From: a virus
Virus record (IMG/VR): IMGVR_UViG_3300037843_000157
Location: 1-27,195 of that record
Reading direction: 5' to 3' (one strand)
DNA: 27,195 nt
The notes beneath the pieces are model-generated. The model ran no database searches, was not told the DNA's origin, and saw only the letters and a program-made list of their open reading frames with translations. The translations under genes were made by a program, and so were the position numbers. Shown piece by piece: positions 2,317-27,195 of the stretch (positions within the stretch are counted from its first letter, which is position 1; every line of letters starts with the position of its first letter).

Positions 2317-2517
2317 CTACGCCGCCTTCGCCCACTTGCCGGGGCTGATTTCTGTGAATGTGGGGATCAGTTGCGGGAATACTTCGACAATCCGCAGTTG
2401 CGCGATGCGCACGGTGGTGATGACGGCAACGGGCTGGGTCTGCGGTTTGGGCATTGCAATCACGAGACCATGATACCGCAGGTTGTCAAATTTCGTACGG
2501 CCGATTCGCAGAGGCAT
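2317..2517 (-). CDS. Small hypothetical protein upstream of terS
   Basis: This 66-residue frame ends ten bases before the small terminase and lies in the same direction. I recognise no family. The sequence is basic and then hydrophobic, with a proline/threonine-rich centre (MPKPQTQPVAVITT at residues 22-35). A start at that internal ATG (2454) would give 45 residues and is equally possible. No good ribosome site is visible for either start. The upstream ATG lies within a perfect palindrome (2516-2525) and only 15 bases from the start of the divergent nuclease gene. Its position in the packaging operon favours a real gene, but it could be a chance frame. Confidence 0.45.
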   Translation of the reverse strand: MPLRIGRTKFDNLRYHGLVIAMPKPQTQPVAVITTVRIAQLRIVEVFPQLIPTFTEISPGKWAKAA

Positions 2518-2532
2518 GATATCATATTGTCG

Positions 2533-2997
2533 ATGGATTCGCGCAACGTTAACTACGCCAATCAGTTACGTCGTTCATTAACACACGCGGAAGAACGGCT
2601 TTATTCGGAGTTGCTGGTCGCTTTCAAGAATTCCTCGATCATAGTGGCTTGCCAGGAGCCGATAAGCTACTACATCGCAGATTTCATGCTCTACCCGCAA
2701 CGCATTGCGATTGAGTGTGATGGCGGATACCATCTCACGCCCAAGGCTCAAGCCTATGATCGGCGACGCACTACCGCAATGAATCAGCTTGGGATCCGCG
2801 TTCTGCGCTTTACAAATCGACGGGTGCTTTATGAAACGACCGCAGTGATTCAAGAGATTCTAGCCGCTTGTGGACCGTTAGAGCCAAAGTCCGACGGAGG
2901 CCCGCATGTGACGATTTGTCCACCTCATCGCGCTAACGCCTCTGGCCGCAAGGCTAAGCGCAAATGGTCTGAGCTCTTGTTTTATCGGCTCCGTTAG
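2533..2997 (+). CDS. DUF559 / Vsr-like endonuclease
   Basis: This 154-residue protein has the DUF559 fold, a PD-(D/E)XK relative of the Vsr repair nuclease. The N-terminal LRRSLTHAEERLY carries the family glutamate (E20). YYIADFML gives D50 and AIECDGGYH gives E61-x-D63 with H67. QLGIRVLRFTNRRVL (about 85-99) is the usual closing strand-helix. The frame stays open upstream to 2371, but that extension would overlap the opposite-strand gene and lacks family sequence. I therefore chose the ATG just before LRRSLTH; a TTG two codons earlier is an alternative. It is the only plus-strand gene among the packaging genes, which suggests an independently acquired nuclease. Its role (repair, mobility or host-DNA attack) cannot be read from sequence. 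Confidence 0.85.
   Translation: MDSRNVNYANQLRRSLTHAEERLYSELLVAFKNSSIIVACQEPISYYIADFMLYPQRIAIECDGGYHLTPKAQAYDRRRTTAMNQLGIRVLRFTNRRVLYETTAVIQEILAACGPLEPKSDGGPHVTICPPHRANASGRKAKRKWSELLFYRLR

Positions 2998-8737: not shown

Positions 8738-8741
<4 letters not shown>
8544..8741 (+). CDS. Cys-rich small protein (zinc-knuckle-like)
   Basis: This 65-residue protein has a tight cysteine cluster, YWCQDCDECGTNPRTCCCCGS at about residues 14-34, which could bind one or two zinc ions. A hydrophobic/helical tail follows (LLGLAAILNRPQQGEIERMI). It is joined to both neighbours by ATGA overlaps, so it is part of a tightly coupled run of early genes. The function is unknown; small zinc-ribbon proteins of phages are often regulators or inhibitors. 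Confidence 0.7.
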
Positions 8742-9357
<616 letters not shown>

Positions 9358-9361
<4 letters not shown>

Positions 9362-20208: not shown

Positions 20209-21171
20209 CTAATATCCGATTGCAAACCATTGAAAATCCTGCGGACTTCCGACGCCCAATGCCACTTCAAATTGTGTTGTGCTGATTGAGTTTTTAGTCG
20301 CGATCACAAAACAGATGCTGTTTCCTGGCCCGTACCACAGACTGGTCGTGTTCACCGCAATGCTGGAGCTATTCGTGAATGCGATCGGAAAATCAACAAT
20401 AGTCCCCGTTGAAGCTCCTGCTACAGTTCCCCATTGACGAATAAGGCCGCTTGGATCTTTCGCCCATCGCCCATTCGCATTCGATCCCGATGTGAATCCT
20501 GATGCAATAGCGCTTTGAACAAAAGCAGTAGTAGCGGCATTGGTCGTATTGTCACCACTTGTGCGTGTAGGACATACAAGTCCATTTGTGGCGAATAGAC
20601 CATTGTTGCTGAATGGAGGTCCGGAGGCATGCAAATTCGCGCTCAGATCTGCTTTGAAAAGAATCAGGCTTACGGCATTCGGCGTCGGATCGGGTTGCAC
20701 AGCGCCGACAAATGAAGATGGCCAAGCCACAGTCCTTCCGCCCGTCGCATCCTGAATAAAGAAGAATCCGACTACCTGGCCGGCCACAACTCCAGAGATG
20801 GTTGAAGATGTGACGTTGCCGGTGAGCGTCATCTGGAAGCCGTTGGCAGCGGCGGCATTGAATGCTGGAGTAGGAGAATAAGCAACCGAAATGAGATTTG
20901 AGAGCAGATCAGCTTCGGTGATGATATTTGCGAGCACTGCGGCCAGGACTGCGACATCCGCATCGCTCGTCGAATATCCCTTTGCGGCCATCATCTGACC
21001 GAACGCAGCACAGAATGTTGTGGGCTGATAAGTGGCCTTATTCAGAAGTGCAGAAGGAACGATATTGTCAACTCCATAGCCGCCAGAGCGTTGCGAATCG
21101 GCTGCGTATTCGGCATCAGTTTCCTGATTGACCGCGCCCGGATTGAAAACTAAGAAATTTGTTGTCGCCAT
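20209..21171 (-). CDS. Tail fibre protein with gp53-like C-terminal domain
   Basis: This 320-residue protein lacks a signal peptide. The N-terminus (MATTNFLVFNPGAVNQETDA, then YAADSQRSGGYGVDNIVPSA) is the usual region that joins the tail. GDNTTNAATTAFVQSAIASG (about 207-226) is the common fibre motif ending N-T-T-x-A-A-T-T-A-F-V. The C-terminus, RWAKDPSGLIRQWGT, DFPIAFTNS and finally QWFAIGY, matches the gp53-like fibre tip domain (G-x-I-x-Q-W-G ... F-P-x-x-F ... A-I-G-Y). It follows DUF2612 by eight bases, as expected for the receptor-binding fibre of this tail. Confidence 0.88.
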   Translation of the reverse strand: MATTNFLVFNPGAVNQETDAEYAADSQRSGGYGVDNIVPSALLNKATYQPTTFCAAFGQMMAAKGYSTSDADVAVLAAVLANIITEADLLSNLISVAYSPTPAFNAAAANGFQMTLTGNVTSSTISGVVAGQVVGFFFIQDATGGRTVAWPSSFVGAVQPDPTPNAVSLILFKADLSANLHASGPPFSNNGLFATNGLVCPTRTSGDNTTNAATTAFVQSAIASGFTSGSNANGRWAKDPSGLIRQWGTVAGASTGTIVDFPIAFTNSSSIAVNTTSLWYGPGNSICFVIATKNSISTTQFEVALGVGSPQDFQWFAIGY

Positions 21172-21178
21172 GATGCTC

Positions 21179-21811
21179 CTATGCCAGATGTCCCAAGTCT
21201 ACGCCCGCAATGAAACTGTTCGATTCGTCCGTTCCGAAGATCGGGAAATCGCCAAACACATACTCATACTCGACGCCTTCAGGCCTCGGCACAATATAGC
21301 CATTGACAATCAAATCCTGAATGATCGACGTAAAGCTGCCTGATAGGACGATCGTACATGACATGTTCTGATTGTCCGTGATGATGATCGATCCGCCGGG
21401 AAACAACTGCGCCCAGATCGGATAAAGAGATTCTTCGGTGCCGTCCCATTGATTTGCGGCGATCGTCGCTTTGATGAGCAGGCGATAAGTGGCATCATCG
21501 AGAATCGGACTCACGCTGTCGGATGGTTGAAACCCAACTGTCTTACTTATCCCCGCAATCTGACCGGCCACATCAAGCTGGACGCCCGAAGCCTCATCGA
21601 GATCGAATGCCCCTGTCATGCCGGCCAGCATATTTGTTGTGTCGTTGAGCGGAGAAAGCAAGTCCTGAAGCCACGCATTGAGATTGGACGCAAGGCGGTA
21701 CTCCGAAGTAAGAAGGCCAAGATAGTACGAGATCGGAAGAATATAAATGGGGCCATTGTCGGCAATCCCATATCGTCCCGATCCGTATCCGCTTTGGTTA
21801 TAGAGCGGCAA
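21179..21811 (-). CDS. DUF2612 baseplate protein
   Basis: This 210-residue protein fits the DUF2612 group that closes the baseplate in contractile-tailed phages, at the position of P2 gpI. Recognisable parts are YYLGLLTSEYRLASNLNAWL, LLSPLNDTTNMLAG and FDLDEASGVQLDVAGQIAGI. WDGTEESLYPIWAQLFPGGS and EGVEYEYVFG follow. The start is TTG, directly after the baseplate J stop (TGATTG). A GGAGG five bases ahead makes this non-ATG start convincing. It acts in the cytoplasm during tail assembly. Confidence 0.85.
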   Translation of the reverse strand: MPLYNQSGYGSGRYGIADNGPIYILPISYYLGLLTSEYRLASNLNAWLQDLLSPLNDTTNMLAGMTGAFDLDEASGVQLDVAGQIAGISKTVGFQPSDSVSPILDDATYRLLIKATIAANQWDGTEESLYPIWAQLFPGGSIIITDNQNMSCTIVLSGSFTSIIQDLIVNGYIVPRPEGVEYEYVFGDFPIFGTDESNSFIAGVDLGHLA

Positions 21812-23056
21812 TCAAGCCTCCGTCACAATGATGTTGGCTGAAATCCCCTGCGCGACCTGATAGTAGTCGAGCGTAATGTCCGTTGTTCCCGAGGGCGATG
21901 CTGAAAGTCCGGTATGCAGGGATGTGATCGAAAACTGCGGCGTCACAAGCGAAGGCATCACCGATTGAGCGACGGAATAGAACGAAGAATAAGTTACTGT
22001 TTCTCCGATTTGAAGGCTATTGAGATACAGCACAATTGCAGCCTGTACTGCCGTCAAGACAGCGCTCGTGTATCCAGCCAGTCCATGAATGACTATCGTC
22101 GCGTAGATTGGCGCGTATGTCGGGCGCTGGAATCCGATGGTAGTAATGGTTCCGGTATTGGGATCAGTCACGGGAACGCTGGTTGAGCCCGCGGTTGAAT
22201 CGGGATTCGTGTAAACTCCGAGACCGCGCTTCTGGTAGATTGCCGTTGCGACTGCCAGATTTGAGCCGCCTTCTACAACCATTGAAATCGAGTGTGGGGG
22301 ATTGCCCCAGAAGTCGATAGATCCAGTTGGATTCTCAATGGAGCTTCCGGGACCGGAATCGGGTGTCGGCGTGCCTGTAGCGTACCGCGTGACGCCAGGG
22401 ACGGCTGCAATGGCTGCGATGGTCGAAGCAAGGCGTGTAAGGGCTGGGGAGGCCACAGAAAGCGCTTGACGAGCCCTGAGCTCGGAATCGCTCTCAGTGG
22501 GCAAGCCCGGAAGCGCCGGAGACGGATTTGTGGCACCTGTCCATCCAGCCGTGGCGCCTCCTGAGATCGTGTTGATCGCTCCTGCGCTTGCCTGTATTGG
22601 GCCGGCTGTTTGGCAGGTAATGCCCACCGTGACGCTTCCACCGCTCGGAATAGTTACGCTGATAGGAAGCGCCCAGACGTATCCCTGAGTATCGGTCACT
22701 TGGCCGAGATTGATGACCGTTCCGCCAGCTCCGGTCACAGTCAATGGCGCTGTGGAATACGAGGCCGGCAACCGCGCAATGCCGTTCATCTTCACGATGC
22801 TGTCAAGATCGGCCCCAATTGCAGTTGATGGAGACCGGGCGTTATAGGCCAACTGTGAAGCGAGATTCGAGTCATAGCATTTCAGGGCGAAGATGGAGAT
22901 TTCCTGGTATTTGGCCGTATCTGTTCCCAAATAAACAACTTGTGGATAAATGGCCTGATATCCGGAGATGAGGCTATTGATGATCGACTGATAGGAAGGA
23001 ATGACGAGGCCCGCTGTTGGGGAGATGAAAGGCGCGATATAGGCAGGTACGGGCAT
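21812..23056 (-). CDS. Baseplate J-like protein
   Basis: This 414-residue protein is the baseplate wedge protein of the gpJ/gp6 family. The N-terminal helical region (SIINSLISGYQAIYPQVVYL, then YDSNLASQLAYNARSPSTAI and GADLDSIVKMNGIAR) is typical, as is LPTESDSELRARQALS at about 185-200. The rest is beta-rich with YQKRGLGVYTNPDS and VTYSSFYSVAQSVM. Its ATG overlaps the stop of the upstream gp25-like gene by one base and its stop abuts the DUF2612 start. The three baseplate genes are thus translated as a block. It indicates a contractile (myovirus-type) tail. Confidence 0.9.
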   Translation of the reverse strand: MPVPAYIAPFISPTAGLVIPSYQSIINSLISGYQAIYPQVVYLGTDTAKYQEISIFALKCYDSNLASQLAYNARSPSTAIGADLDSIVKMNGIARLPASYSTAPLTVTGAGGTVINLGQVTDTQGYVWALPISVTIPSGGSVTVGITCQTAGPIQASAGAINTISGGATAGWTGATNPSPALPGLPTESDSELRARQALSVASPALTRLASTIAAIAAVPGVTRYATGTPTPDSGPGSSIENPTGSIDFWGNPPHSISMVVEGGSNLAVATAIYQKRGLGVYTNPDSTAGSTSVPVTDPNTGTITTIGFQRPTYAPIYATIVIHGLAGYTSAVLTAVQAAIVLYLNSLQIGETVTYSSFYSVAQSVMPSLVTPQFSITSLHTGLSASPSGTTDITLDYYQVAQGISANIIVTEA

Positions 23057-23463
23057 TATGGCGTCACCTGGGCGCTCGATCCTGGAGCGTTCGTTACGAC
23101 AAGATTACCAAAGCTCGTTTGAACAGTCGCCGTGAAGGTTGACGCCATCGTTGCCGTATTGAGAGAAAAGTTAAAATTGAGAATTTTGGTCACATAGGGA
23201 CAGCCGAGAATTGTCTGCTGAATGATGAGCATGACACCGGCCTGATTTGCAGGCGCACCCGAGGAGCCAATGAGCGACTGGAAGAGAGGAAATCCAATGA
23301 CTAGATTCTCCCACCATTCTGAAAGCAATAATCTTAATGTAGTATAAATTATCTGAGCAACAGCATCCAAGTCTGTCAAGAAAACTGGGCCATTTTCGCC
23401 TTCGATAGGATCATTTGTGGGTTGGCTGTTCTGTTGCACCATAATTGTAGGAGTTGCCATCAT
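23056..23463 (-). CDS. gp25-like baseplate protein (copy with intact 5' end)
   Basis: This 135-residue protein starts MMATPTIMVQQNSQPTNDPI. The body, LTDLDAVAQIIYTTLRLLLS and EWWENLVIGFPLFQSLIGSS, has the D...I...L.T..GEW..N...G.P pattern of gp25/gpW-like wedge proteins. The C-terminal half is beta-rich (ILNFNFSLNTATMASTFTAT). It lies directly before baseplate J, where this family is found. AAAGGTGG precedes two adjacent ATGs. The first 14 codons have a diverged twin on the far side of the HNH gene (24030-24077), so the current 5' end may have come with that element. The family is inferred from pattern and position. Confidence 0.75.
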   Translation of the reverse strand: MMATPTIMVQQNSQPTNDPIEGENGPVFLTDLDAVAQIIYTTLRLLLSEWWENLVIGFPLFQSLIGSSGAPANQAGVMLIIQQTILGCPYVTKILNFNFSLNTATMASTFTATVQTSFGNLVVTNAPGSSAQVTP

Positions 23464-23489
23464 GCCCACCTTTCCGATACTATAAAGAT

Positions 23490-24029
23490 ATGCCTGCTGG
23501 AATTTACCATCGCAAGATTCGACCTGTAGTGATTCCCATTGGTCCATCGATCGCTTATGTACCTTTGACTCATGGACTTTATGCCCTCATCGATACCAAC
23601 GATGCAGAGCGCGTTGGAATCTTCAATTGGCATGCTAGATGGGACAAGAGCTCTCGTGCTTTTTATGCGTGGACCACAGGCCGTAAACTTCCTTATCAAG
23701 CCGTCTCTATGCATCGATTTATTCTTGGCGAAGGGAAAGAGGGTGAAACTCCGGATCACAGAAAAGTAGAAGCCACGTTGGATAATCGACGTTGCAATCT
23801 TCGATTCGCGGATCATGCGCAACAGAACTGCAATCGACGCATTCATTCGAACAATAAAAGCGGGTATAAAGGAGTTTTCTGGCACAATCGAGATCGCGCT
23901 TGGATTGCAAAAATAACACTTCATGGTCGTCTTCAATGGAGTGGGCGATTCAATGACCCTCTTTCTGCGTACAACGCTCGCTGCGAAGAGGTACGAAGAT
24001 TGCATGGAGAATTCGCACGCATCGCCTAA
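23490..24029 (+). CDS. HNH homing-type endonuclease with AP2-like domain
   Basis: This 179-residue protein has an N-terminal region (IAYVPLTHGLYALIDTNDAE, AFYAWTTGRKLPYQAVSMHR) leading into an HNH nuclease. H75 lies in SMHRFILG, D89-H90 in TPDH, and LDNRRCNLRFADHAQQNCNR carries N99 and N103. An AP2-like DNA-binding domain follows at about 124-177 (SGYKGVFWHNRDRAWIAKIT ... RLHGEFA). This is the standard architecture of free-standing phage homing endonucleases. It runs opposite to the baseplate operon. I chose the ATG at 23490; an upstream TTG would overlap the opposite gene. The insertion lies at the start of the gp25-like gene. Confidence 0.92.
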   Translation: MPAGIYHRKIRPVVIPIGPSIAYVPLTHGLYALIDTNDAERVGIFNWHARWDKSSRAFYAWTTGRKLPYQAVSMHRFILGEGKEGETPDHRKVEATLDNRRCNLRFADHAQQNCNRRIHSNNKSGYKGVFWHNRDRAWIAKITLHGRLQWSGRFNDPLSAYNARCEEVRRLHGEFARIA

Positions 24030-24045
24030 TTTCGGCTGCGAATTC
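24009..24045. repeat. Perfect nine-base inverted repeat at the HNH gene boundary
   Basis: GAATTCGCA (24009-24017) is matched by TGCGAATTC (24037-24045) with a 19-base spacer containing the HNH stop codon. One arm lies in the end of the HNH gene and the other in the remnant baseplate codons, so the repeat straddles the apparent insertion junction. Confidence 0.8.
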
Positions 24046-24077
24046 TGCTGCACGAGAATGGTTGGCGTTGTGCTCAT
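24030..24077 (-). pseudogene. Stranded 5' end of the gp25-like baseplate gene
   Basis: Reading the minus strand from 24077, MSTTPTILVQQNSQPK parallels MATPTIMVQQNSQPT of the intact gene at 23460. Twelve of 14 aligned residues are identical, but 29 of 42 bases match, with most changes at third positions. It keeps a GGCGGAG site and an ATGA coupling to the preceding micro-ORF. The frame beyond it runs antisense through the HNH gene and is not a plausible protein. This appears to be the original start of the gene, cut off by the HNH element. Confidence 0.75.
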
Positions 24078-24124
24078 TTCTCCGCCGCCAGCATTAAGAT
24101 CGTCAGTATCGCAATTCGCTTCAT
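24074..24124 (-). CDS. 16-residue coupled micro-ORF
   Basis: MKRIAILTILMLAAEK, a basic start plus a hydrophobic run. Its ATG overlaps the stop of the 24-residue frame upstream (ATGA). Its TGA overlaps the ATG of the stranded baseplate start (ATGA). The double overlap suggests a translational relay to the original baseplate gene; alone it could also be a decayed signal peptide. Confidence 0.35.
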   Translation of the reverse strand: MKRIAILTILMLAAEK

Positions 24125-24195
24125 GTTCGCCTCATCCCGCCCCGCACGCAGGGGCGCATCAGTGCATCATCGTTGTCACGCCGCAAGCTCCGCAC
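24121..24195 (-). CDS. 24-residue micro-ORF with strong ribosome site
   Basis: A GTG at 24193-24195 follows GGAGG, which itself overlaps the stop codon of the secreted 332-residue gene. The peptide is VRSLRRDNDDALMRPCVRGG plus MRRT and matches nothing known. Its stop is coupled to the 16-residue frame. Listed for its start signals only. Confidence 0.35.
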   Translation of the reverse strand: MRSLRRDNDDALMRPCVRGGMRRT

Positions 24196-24203
24196 AAGTC
24201 CTC

Positions 24204-25202
24204 CTACGGTACAAATGCCGCCATCGAAATCGCATTGTTCCCGACATTGATCACGCCGGAACCATAAGTAATCGTCGGTTGTAGAGCGCTGCTTCCCGAA
24301 TCGATAAGGTAGGCGTCTATGCCTAGCTCTCCGCTTCCGCTTGTCGTATCTAGGACTTGAAAGCCGCTGTCGATAGTGAGATTCGGAGCCGAAAAATTAT
24401 TACTTGCAGAAAACGCAATAATCAGCAACTCGTTTGCTGCCGAAGGGGTCAGAGAAGCAGACGGCTGAATCGACGTCGTGCTTGTGGAGTAATTACCAAC
24501 TACTCCCGCAGTGCTGTCATAGACAGATGAAGTTGTGAGCGTGTTTTTCCATGCACTGACTTCACAACTGATATATCCGCTGGCATCGCCGCAAGTGAAC
24601 TGCTGCGATATCCCGGTTGTGACCGCGTAGGCGTAGCAGATCGAAGCGTAACGATTGCCAGAACTTCCCGAAGCGGTCAGACAATGAAACGTATTCGATG
24701 TTGCGGTCGGAGTGTTAGCGGCAGAATTGTAAGAACTCGTGGCGATGACAAACAAGGTCGCGCCGGTAGTGTTCATGCCGGTCGTGGTGCAGCTCGTCCC
24801 GCTCGACGAACAGAAGGTGTGGGCGGGCGTGCCATTGTTCACGATTGCTATCGGATTGGCGCTGATTGTGTAGGCTGCGCTTGCTATAGCCGAGTCATAG
24901 TAACCTGTGCCGCCTGCCACGGCGTAAAGCGTCTCGGTTGAGGAAACCGAAATCGTGCCAGTGTAGAGCGTTCCCGTCGTGCATCCCGTCGTCCCATTCG
25001 TGGCGGGCGAGCCTGTTGTGTTGTAGCAAATCACGCCACCTGCAACTGTCGAGATCGTCACCGTCTGCGTGCTGCCGTAGCTACCAGCAGCGGGCGAGAA
25101 CGAGGGAGTCCCAGCGGTGAGATGCGTCTTTCCGCCGGTCATCAGCACTTGCGCGGCTGACACAGAAGCGAAGAGGAAAAAAACCGACCCGAGCTTTCGC
25201 AT
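24204..25202 (-). CDS. Secreted protein with chitobiase-type C-terminal repeat domain
   Basis: This 332-residue protein starts with a signal peptide (MRKLGSVFFLFASVSAAQ). Residues about 32-115 resemble the CHB_HEX_C_1 module: PSFSPAAGSYGSTQTVTIST, a VICYNTTGSPAT segment, and TLYAVAGGTGYYDSAIASAA before YTI. This matches P-x-F-x-P-x-x-G-x-Y...V-T-[IL]...I-x-Y-T...L-x-A-x-A. The remainder is Thr/Ser-rich and beta-like (ATLFVIATSSYNSAANTPTA, NELLIIAFSASNNFSAPNLT), ending GVINVGNNAISMAAFVP. A very good GGAGGAG site lies before the ATG. The Ser/Thr-rich C-terminal part looks like a lectin-type beta sandwich. It probably acts outside the cytoplasm, on or near cell-surface glycans. Confidence 0.78.
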   Translation of the reverse strand: MRKLGSVFFLFASVSAAQVLMTGGKTHLTAGTPSFSPAAGSYGSTQTVTISTVAGGVICYNTTGSPATNGTTGCTTGTLYTGTISVSSTETLYAVAGGTGYYDSAIASAAYTISANPIAIVNNGTPAHTFCSSSGTSCTTTGMNTTGATLFVIATSSYNSAANTPTATSNTFHCLTASGSSGNRYASICYAYAVTTGISQQFTCGDASGYISCEVSAWKNTLTTSSVYDSTAGVVGNYSTSTTSIQPSASLTPSAANELLIIAFSASNNFSAPNLTIDSGFQVLDTTSGSGELGIDAYLIDSGSSALQPTITYGSGVINVGNNAISMAAFVP

Positions 25203-25211
25203 TTCTCCTCC

Positions 25212-27195
25212 CTAGCTACTGCTCGATGTTCCAGCTAGCGTCGTGCATTTCATAAAAACCGCATTTGGCGAGACAAAACACGAAAAGCTATTGCCAACGG
25301 CAGGAGCAGCAAAGATGATGTTTGTAACTGCCGATGCCGATCCGTCCAAGTAGATGTTCGCACCTGTCGAATGATACTCAAAATAATTGGATGCCTGGGC
25401 CGTTTCCATCGTAATGACGAAAACCATGCCTGCCGTCAAAGATGGTCCGGTCACGGCGACATTTGTTGCACCCTGCCCGTAATTCGTTAGGACAGCATTC
25501 GACAACTGTGCCGCTGTAGGCGAACATCCGGCATCTGGAGTTCCACCCGTCGAGAGATGACACAACACCGTCTGCGGGACCATCTGAGTGCTGCCCGCAA
25601 GGATAGTCAACGTCGTGCTAGAGTTACCGAGGGTTGTAGTGTTGCTGCCCGCTCCCGTTGCCCCTTCTCCAATCACGATTTCATTTGAGTCTGTAGCAAT
25701 AGCAAGCCCCGTATTGTATCCAATCAAGATAATGTTCGCGGCGGTCGTGGCGTTCTGCGTTCCATTATTACCTGCGCTTTTGCCAATCGCGGTATCGCCG
25801 CTTCCCGTCGTCAGCGATTGCAGGGCTCCTTGGCCAACGGCGACGAGATTGCTGCCGGTCGCCACGTTGAGCGAGTAGGAACCCACTCCAGTATCGCCGC
25901 CGTTTGTTGTAACTGTCTCAAGCGATTCATACCCGACCGCCGTATTATTGTTTCCCGAAGTTTCGGCCTCAAGCGCATTCTGGCCAATTGCCGTATTGTA
26001 GCTGGAATTGCTGGTGTAGAGAGCGCTCGAACCAACGGCGACATTCTGAGTCGCCGTAGTCATCGTATACATTGCATCTTCGCCTACGGCAGTGTTTGCA
26101 CTGCCAGTAGTCATGGTCGCCTCTGCATTTGAACCGAGAGCTGTATTGAGATTGCCTCCCGTGCCCGTCAGTGAATAGAGAGCGTTTTGCCCGAGCGCAG
26201 TGTTGTCATGCGTGACCGTAGCGACGAAAAGAGCTTGCTGACCGATGGCGGTGTTGTTATATCCGCTTGTGTTAGCCGCCAGCGCCGCTTCACCTACCGC
26301 TGTGTTGTAATCTCCCGTGTTCGCGCCGGCGAGTGCGTCCGTTCCTACGGCGGTGTTGTCGAACGCCGTTGTGTTCTGATCGAGGGCATAGGTTCCCACG
26401 GCCACATTGTTGTACCCCGTCGTATTCGCTTTCATCGCCCAGAATCCAACTGCGGTGTCTTCTAAACCACCGCTTGCCGCTTGCGTTGCAGCGCCTAGCG
26501 CATCTTCACCAATTGCAACGTCATACTGGCTAACTGCCGTCTGGCTCCCGTTTGCGCCAACGCCAAGCGAAAGGCTCGTGCTGTCAGCATCCGGGTAGAA
26601 AAGAAGCGGAGAGGTATTGTTCTCAAGAAACGTGTTGACCCCAGAGCCTAAATTCAAAGGCTCTGAAGAGGTCACGAGTGTTCCATTGTCCGTCAGATGA
26701 GGCGTGCTCCATGAACTTGATCCCGAATAGAGCGCATAGCCAGCCGCTCCTGGAGTGCTCAGATTTGCGATGGCTCCGCAGGCGCTTCCGCCGCAGTTTG
26801 AGCCAATCTCGTCAAAGTCGGTTCCGTTTGCGTCAGTAGTAATCGAGGCGCTTCCGCCGATTGGAACAACGCATCCTGGCGGCTCGCAGTGCAGCGTCGG
26901 GCCACCGCTTACGACGGTGACTGCCGCCGTGCCCGCGTTCTGAATTGACGCGATGAATCCCGCTGTAACAGATGCCGGAGTCGTGGCGTTCGACGCGCCG
27001 GATCCAGTGAACCGGAACACGGTATTCGAAGCGAGATTAAAGCTGGTTGTTTCGCTGGTATTGTTGGCAAGCGCCGTTGCCGCGCCCATATCTCCGAGCG
27101 CCTGTGCCGCCGTCCGATATTGCAACACATGCGCCGTTCCCGTGGACTCCGCAAATTCAGGGGTGCTCGTCGTTCCGCTTCCATCGGTCACCGTG
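25212..27195 (-). CDS. YadA-head-repeat fibre or adhesin, 5' end beyond window
   Basis: At least 660 residues, open to the right edge, so the true start is outside; the in-frame GTG at 27189-27191 need not be used. The first 170 residues include QYRTAAQALGDMGAATALAN, a common fibre motif. The centre has about 17 repeats of 14-16 residues with N-T-A-[VI]-G-x-x-[AS]-L (for example NNTAVGYESLETVTTNG), the trimeric left-handed beta-roll of YadA/Hep_Hag heads. The C-terminal 130 residues are beta-rich with few cysteines. A trimeric fibre that binds surfaces is the natural reading. A signal peptide, if any, would be outside the window. Confidence 0.82.
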   Translation of the reverse strand, partial: TVTDGSGTTSTPEFAESTGTAHVLQYRTAAQALGDMGAATALANNTSETTSFNLASNTVFRFTGSGASNATTPASVTAGFIASIQNAGTAAVTVVSGGPTLHCEPPGCVVPIGGSASITTDANGTDFDEIGSNCGGSACGAIANLSTPGAAGYALYSGSSSWSTPHLTDNGTLVTSSEPLNLGSGVNTFLENNTSPLLFYPDADSTSLSLGVGANGSQTAVSQYDVAIGEDALGAATQAASGGLEDTAVGFWAMKANTTGYNNVAVGTYALDQNTTAFDNTAVGTDALAGANTGDYNTAVGEAALAANTSGYNNTAIGQQALFVATVTHDNTALGQNALYSLTGTGGNLNTALGSNAEATMTTGSANTAVGEDAMYTMTTATQNVAVGSSALYTSNSSYNTAIGQNALEAETSGNNNTAVGYESLETVTTNGGDTGVGSYSLNVATGSNLVAVGQGALQSLTTGSGDTAIGKSAGNNGTQNATTAANIILIGYNTGLAIATDSNEIVIGEGATGAGSNTTTLGNSSTTLTILAGSTQMVPQTVLCHLSTGGTPDAGCSPTAAQLSNAVLTNYGQGATNVAVTGPSLTAGMVFVITMETAQASNYFEYHSTGANIYLDGSASAVTNIIFAAPAVGNSFSCFVSPNAVFMKCTTLAGTSSSS
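25770..26535 (-). repeat. Tandem YadA-type head repeats (coding)
   Basis: The frame shows successive units such as YDVAIGEDALGAA, DNTAVGTDALAGAN, YNTAVGEAALAANTSG, NTALGSNAEATMTTG and YNTAIGQNALEAETSG. Unit length is mostly 14-16 residues, with occasional longer units. The units are similar in protein but clearly diverged in DNA, so this is an old repeat rather than a recent expansion. Confidence 0.85.

Follow-up and report, generated by a model that had tools for sequence, protein, structure and literature searches.

How can a selfish nuclease gene live at the start of an essential phage gene without killing it? This question is raised by a 27,195-base IMG/VR fragment of a tailed phage, described as soil-type (IMGVR_UViG_3300037843_000157; "the window" below means this whole stretch), in which an HNH-AP2 endonuclease gene, HNH1, separates two diverged copies of the start of a baseplate-wedge gene. 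Our preferred answer, to which we give a probability of about 0.78, is that HNH1 is a free-standing homing endonuclease gene (HEG) that moves together with a diverged 5' end of the gene it targets. The observations that carry this reading are the anatomy of the locus, relatives with a single wedge start, two upstream backgrounds with their breakpoint at the element, a conversion-like tract, a deletion scar, and recurrence of the architecture at other genes. The locus, read in the direction of the wedge gene, is composed as follows.

24074-24124, minus strand: 16-codon open reading frame (ORF) MKRIAILTILMLAAEK, whose TGA overlaps the outer ATG (ATGA); present only in the window-type upstream background.
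24033-24077, minus strand: outer stub, native wedge codons 1-15 stranded upstream of the element, matching the native starts of HNH-less relatives up to CAGCCGAA.
24029-24030: left junction, where the HNH1 stop codon (24027-24029) directly abuts the stub; the two upstream backgrounds become identical between 24051 and this junction.
23490-24029, plus strand: HNH-AP2 endonuclease gene (HNH1), 179 amino acids, antiparallel to the tail operon; PHROG phrog_99, E 3e-27.
23460-24077, minus strand: outer frame, open for 205 codons through the whole HNH1 antisense strand, a possible translational bridge; its TGA end overlaps the inner ATG.
23464-23473, minus strand: sequence of the inner start's ribosome site, AAAGGTGGGC, kept in the scar of L011 and L012.
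23419-23463, minus strand: inner rescue copy, diverged codons 1-15 MMATPTIMVQQNSQP.
23056-23463, minus strand: full-length baseplate-wedge gene beginning at the inner start; match to PHROG phrog_120 (baseplate wedge subunit), E 9e-19.

The outer start (ATG 24077, minus strand) has the peptide MSTTPTILVQQNSQPK and the ribosome site GGCGGAG. The inner start reads ATGATGG, with its first ATG at 23463 and its second at 23460 (minus strand), the peptide MMATPTIMVQQNSQPT and AAAGGTGGG upstream. An earlier model-made reading of the letters alone (the sequence-only reading) had described two starts, each with a ribosome site and the outer one ATGA-coupled to a micro-ORF, and we found them as described; that 16-codon ORF may be what remains of an inserted cargo gene cut down to its signal-peptide end. 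Aligned over 15 codons, the two starts have 12 of 15 residues and 30 of 45 bases in common; different codons specify 8 of those 12 residues. The earlier count of 12 of 14 matching residues and 13 of 42 differing bases amounts to the same in a slightly shifted alignment, and the label "gp25-like" fits the phrog_120 match. The similarity between the two flanks of HNH1 reached z = 7.2 against shuffles, whereas z of at least 7 occurred in 2 of 1120 mismatched flank pairs. Since, in addition, the outer peptide is the native start of the gene family, the likeness of the two starts is not due to chance.

The HNH1 product carries homing-type catalytic and DNA-binding domains: besides the phrog_99 match, profile comparison matched AP2 chains and gave a weak match to I-HmuI (1u3e) with profile A3, and the conserved positions are DH, N, NLR and GxKGV. 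The gene stands outside any self-splicing intron or intein, being antiparallel to its target, and the Rfam search returned no RNA family or group I intron at the site at E up to 1, so that a ribozyme core around the ORF, as in a group I intron HEG, was not found. Judged from the junction sequence, the left junction would be the point of cleavage and insertion. A 10-base inverted repeat (AGAATTCGCA at 24008-24017 and TGCGAATTCT at 24037-24046) spans this junction, combining the last codons of HNH1 with the stub; it may be a chance feature, GAATTC itself being palindromic.

A wedge-protein scan of viral contigs yielded 52 loci. Nine of them (L002-L010), from nine metagenomes, have the duplicated start around an identical HNH gene, and two (L011 and L012) have both starts and no HNH gene. 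Two others (L050 and L053) begin inside the wedge gene and are uninformative on its start; the remaining loci have a single wedge start. Most of the single-start loci inspected have the wedge start immediately at the end of the upstream spike-like gene (e.g., GGAGGCCCA-ATGAGTACAACG in L045); in some, another sequence lies just upstream (e.g., L013-L017, L028-L030 and L051). A pattern search found six contigs with the exact empty site type GTNCARCARAAYTCGCARCCNAAYAAY, the native empty wedge start being CAGCAGAAYTCGCAGCCGAACAAYGATCC. Since HNH-less relatives begin the wedge gene once, with outer-type sequence, the outer copy is the native start. The stub follows natives such as L030 (GTG CAG CAG AAC TCG CAG CCG AAC AAC GAT CCC) up to CCGAA; beyond that point, the triplet after AAA is TTA, the complement of the HNH1 stop codon. 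The inner copy continues the gene from the codon at which the stub breaks off (QQNSQP-TNDPI), and the wedge genes of single-start relatives are mostly 69-85% identical to that of the window. The core proposal of the sequence-only reading, that the element entered the wedge-gene start and brought another 5' end, is thus well supported by the single-start relatives and by a stub that is native up to the HNH stop.

The HNH-carrying contigs fall into two upstream backgrounds. The window, L004 and L005 have common cargo genes and the micro-ORF upstream, with a complete spike-like gene upstream of this cargo in L005. In the L006-type background (L002, L003 and L006-L010) the cargo is different and is joined to the final codons of the spike-like gene. 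The upstream DNA of the two backgrounds is unrelated and five stub positions differ (24051-24069), yet the sequences are identical from 24050 on. The identity reaches 21823 in five L006-type contigs; L010 ends earlier, and L003 diverges below ~22660. Five differences within the stub followed by identity place the breakpoint within ~21 bases of the element, which, on sequence grounds, is what break repair at the element's site would leave.

The spike-like/wedge gene junction is also a cargo hot spot (24078-27195 in the window, and the upstream regions of L005 and L006). In the window this cargo encodes signal-peptide proteins and adhesin-like repeats. L006 has another set, in which a second wedge-like gene is joined to the final codons of the spike gene.

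L011 and L012 share 49 identical bases with the HNH-carrying phages before the stub. From the inner ribosome site on, 272 bases are identical (one mismatch, in L012), and identity then drops to ~88-90%. Exactly 576 bases are deleted between, in frame: the HNH gene is gone, the inner ribosome site is kept, and the outer frame is left with 13 codons and the same TGA end. These two loci would represent a conversion event followed, in that presumed order, by loss of the nuclease gene. HNH-less relatives carrying both starts had been named as a result that would speak against an insertion; formally L011 and L012 are such relatives, but the conversion-like tract and the 576-base deletion indicate that they descend from an HNH-carrying state. 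Together with the two backgrounds, they give HNH1 the present/absent polymorphism and flank conversion among close relatives that mark a free-standing HEG.

Based on this anatomy, the following course of events can be proposed. The nuclease would cut HNH-less phages in the wedge gene near codon 15, and repair from an HNH-carrying genome would furnish the cut gene with the HNH gene and the donor start (ribosome site and codons 1-15). The donor sequence would recombine back into the wedge gene further downstream, and the first 15 codons of the recipient would remain upstream as the stub. With the wedge protein presumably made from the inner start, an essential gene would be occupied without being lost. 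The base differences of the inner start, though mere natural divergence, would probably also shield the occupied genome from cutting.

In one respect the sequence-only reading is not borne out. It took the inner 5' end for a foreign, recoded one; native starts differ among themselves by 0 to 59% over the first 45 bases, with a median of 33% (0.33), and the inner and outer starts differ by 33% (0.33). Because natives diverge equally, special recoding is unnecessary, and the inner start is most simply read as the normal start of another phage, reached by natural divergence; its differences may protect against cleavage all the same. The element may have brought a 5' fragment only, or the whole 5' half of the donor gene.

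Several findings weigh against our reading. All HNH1 proteins found at the wedge site are identical, so independent invasions cannot be counted, and no other HNH1-type gene was found at this operon beyond the identical set. When the first 48-base windows were compared, no native stood out as donor of the inner 5' end; the downstream wedge gene is about equally distant from all natives, and the windowed comparison showed no donor end. Recombination of the upstream region alone could mimic the two backgrounds. Finally, the search turned up no very close HNH-less relative of the window whose start is untouched; L011 and L012, which come nearest, are scars.

The rival that we take most seriously, though at somewhat less than even odds, is that the anatomy is a historical accident. 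The HNH gene would once have been intergenic, upstream of a divergent wedge gene; donor HNH gene and wedge 5' half would then have been copied in together, and the left end joined illegitimately inside the recipient's gene, leaving the stub, with the inner start simply the donor's normal one. This account agrees with an inner start whose distance from natives does not exceed that among natives, with the usual intergenic position of free-standing phage HEGs and their co-conversion of flanks (PMC2988022), and with the L011/L012 tract, whose 272 bases begin at the inner ribosome site and reach into the wedge gene. It also predicts loci in which a stub-less HNH gene separates the upstream gene from a divergent wedge gene; however, none were found, and a stub directly against an HNH gene recurs at several unrelated genes, which suggests more than one accident. 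The accident and the home-and-rescue reading differ in origin, predict the same present anatomy, and can both be true.

Other explanations fare worse. The 205 open codons of the outer frame in the window, and its coupling to a small upstream ORF, might suggest a leader peptide or a conserved gene in its own right, with HNH1 in an ordinary intergenic gap. We consider this very improbable, because in HNH-less relatives outer-type sequence starts the wedge gene itself, and the single-start relatives thereby contradict what the sequence-only reading had listed as a possible objection. The 205-codon product exists only where the HNH gene is and matched no protein family above the curated threshold; with its atypical antisense composition, it was rejected as a real protein. 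Still less credible is an assembly artefact mixing two strains: the material consists of metagenome contigs only, but the same junctions occur in ten contigs (the window and those from nine other metagenomes), a recurrence that excludes assembly error for practical purposes, and the scar occurs in two more. The chance that a group I intron, intein or programmed bypass joins both parts is close to nil. HNH genes often sit in introns, but HNH1 is antiparallel to the operon, Rfam was blank, and the downstream gene has a complete start of its own and thus needs no joining.

A second HNH insertion, HNH2, affects the same operon at the end of the baseplate J gene, downstream of the wedge gene.

21812-23056, minus strand: baseplate J gene.
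21810-21823, minus strand: empty site of HNH2 (611 bases) at the baseplate J/DUF2612 junction; the insertion is present in L002, L003, L005, L006 and L008 and absent from the window, L004, L007 and L009.
21179-21811, minus strand: DUF2612 gene.
20209-21171, minus strand: gp53-like tail-fibre gene.

The HNH2 insert (L006:5642-6252) contains an antiparallel HNH_3 gene (PF13392), with a stop codon at the left junction. With it, the last codons of J encode SQI instead of TEA, and the next gene receives an L018-like start (GAATGTAGATGCCACTT); since the insertion lies within the final codons of J, no duplicate is required. Its presence or absence segregates in both upstream backgrounds.

We surveyed other genes for the same architecture by collecting HNH relatives of both types from viral contigs, dereplicating them to 140 loci and comparing the translated flanks on either side; the z-scores vary slightly between runs because the shuffles are random. 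Seven of the 140 loci reached z of at least 7, against 2 of the 1120 mismatched pairs (0.25 expected), and five reached at least 9, against none of the mismatched pairs. In the tabulated run L228, L221, L332, L345, L213 and L318 scored above the window. L213 is a 5' case, in which a stub MTQPSTTEELLASLNKPLP is followed by the HNH gene and then by MDKPASTEEILASLNRALP running into a DnaB helicase; a replicate from another metagenome (L214) is 100% identical over 1,800 bases. L228 and L318 are further 5' cases. In the 3' cases, L332 and L345, a complete gene with a divergent end is followed by the HNH gene and then by the native end. L207 looks 3'-type and is weaker (z 5.2, not significant alone). 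The start or stop of the HNH gene overlaps or closely abuts the stub or rescue copy in these cases, except in L207, where the HNH start is poorly placed. Outside the window, the labels stub and rescue copy are applied by analogy. No cultured-phage relatives of the L228 and L207 targets were found. In all, five clear further cases (three 5', one of them in dnaB, and two 3') and one weaker case occur among 140 other viral HNH loci. The sequence-only reading was right that the arrangement differs from the usual homing site; the pattern is not unique, as similar duplicates flank several other phage HNH genes.

L221 was left out because its flank duplication looks by eye like a group I intron remnant: at L221:2600-3600, duplicated non-coding blocks resembling a group I intron stand on either side of the HNH gene.

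The open outer frame, which the sequence-only reading had overlooked, suggests an addition to the home-and-rescue reading rather than an alternative to it. Ribosomes might cross the insertion through a frame kept open for this and restart at the inner ATG, which would render the insertion neutral to the translationally coupled operon. We hold this idea tentatively and consider it a lead, not a result. Both HNH1 and HNH2 lack TTA, CTA and TCA codons, for which the chance of an open frame under phage codon use is 0.15 and 0.05, respectively, although these two genes prompted the idea and their chances are therefore no test of it. Each of the two frames is coupled to the preceding gene at its beginning and terminates at the following start codon, the scar deletion leaves the frame intact, and in L215, L218, L220 and L244 similar frames terminate no more than ~9 bases from the following start. 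Among the antiparallel HNH genes of an independent set, however, 5 of 10 frames were open versus 2.67 expected (P = 0.066; composition-based gene caller), with 6 of 57 versus 7.4 expected among parallel controls under the same caller. A cruder first gene call based on longest ORFs had given 7 of 15 antiparallel genes open versus 2.8 expected, but longest ORFs misjudge the strand in GC-rich DNA. Clear counterexamples are the Tunturi_2 HNH gene and the L163 GIY-YIG gene, with 5 stops each.

Some further observations concern the surroundings. The L163 gene (L163:6398-7057, minus strand), an antiparallel GIY-YIG nuclease gene, belongs to the corresponding tail operon of distant relatives, where DUF2612-like and tail-fibre genes flank it. 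A Bryobacterales metagenome-assembled genome (L186), the single distant match among host-genome relatives, has the same kind of locus; phrog_99 matches occur in 18 of 396 genomes of its phylum and were not used as evidence. L007, an HNH-carrying relative, lacks ~2.3 kb of the window's tail-fibre region (window 19922 joins 17662). A possible third mobile nuclease of the window is encoded by a DUF559-type (Vsr-like) gene at 2431-2994 (plus strand), directly upstream of the terminase small subunit gene on the minus strand. The ORF at 8738-9361 (plus strand) contains a long Ala/Tyr/Asp-rich run of short repeats (YAAADAA), and the opposite strand is also open, as Gly/Val repeats.

The closest precedent is a mirror-image, C-terminal case in fungal mitochondria, the mORF gene hybrids of Allomyces macrogynus atp6 and Glomus atp6, atp9, cox2 and nad3 (PMC3630166). 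There, too, an endonuclease ORF has entered an essential gene and brought a divergent copy of the severed part, a native stub is left, and the protein is conserved while the DNA has diverged; the Glomus atp6 C-terminal copies have 63.5% DNA identity and 91% protein identity (PMC3630166). The window shares the native stub beside the nuclease gene and the divergent copy that completes the gene with a conserved protein. The fungal hybrids, which reside in mitochondrial DNA, duplicate the C-terminus and mostly involve LAGLIDADG or GIY-YIG nucleases (PMC3630166); the phage element duplicates the N-terminal part and has an antisense HNH-AP2 gene. The element thus works like an mORF hybrid and is not a member of that class as described; the phage 3'-type loci L332 and L345 resemble the fungal hybrids as well (PMC3630166). 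With the T4-type free-standing HEGs (seg and mob), HNH1 shares a stand-alone nuclease gene, the lack of an intron and probable flank co-conversion, but those genes are intergenic or split their host gene into two parts that are produced separately (mobE in Aeh1 nrdA, mobA in T4 gene 60; PMC2988022), whereas here a second 5' end restores the whole target. HNH genes at phage exchange boundaries offer another likeness, in that the nuclease gene lies exactly at the border of two backgrounds; terminal target-gene duplications such as those seen here are not reported in the searched passages of that source (PMC10448857). Engineered HomeR gene drives likewise place a nuclease in an essential gene together with its rescue sequence; they use engineered Cas9 in Drosophila, and the likeness is one of logic only (PMC7968924). 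In the openly licensed literature, we found no earlier description of 5' rescue by a phage homing endonuclease or of phage terminal-rescue duplicates.

A generalization that we put forward with considerable reserve is that phage HEGs commonly travel as home-and-rescue units, with a divergent copy of one end of the cut gene, that can settle at either end of essential genes, and that antiparallel ones are constrained as antisense translational bridges that preserve operon coupling. Such duplicates occur at ~4-5% of the surveyed viral HNH loci (6 of 140, one of them weak). The arrangement could be a route by which a selfish nuclease with neither intron nor intein lives inside an essential gene, a situation usually explained by introns or inteins. 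It seems to be nature's version of engineered home-and-rescue drives and leaves a visible aftermath, a two-start scar, when the nuclease gene is lost. Many short "truncated duplicate" ORFs beside phage HNH genes may be stubs that mark the gene that was cut and, roughly, the cut site; if so, nuclease targets would be predictable from sequence.

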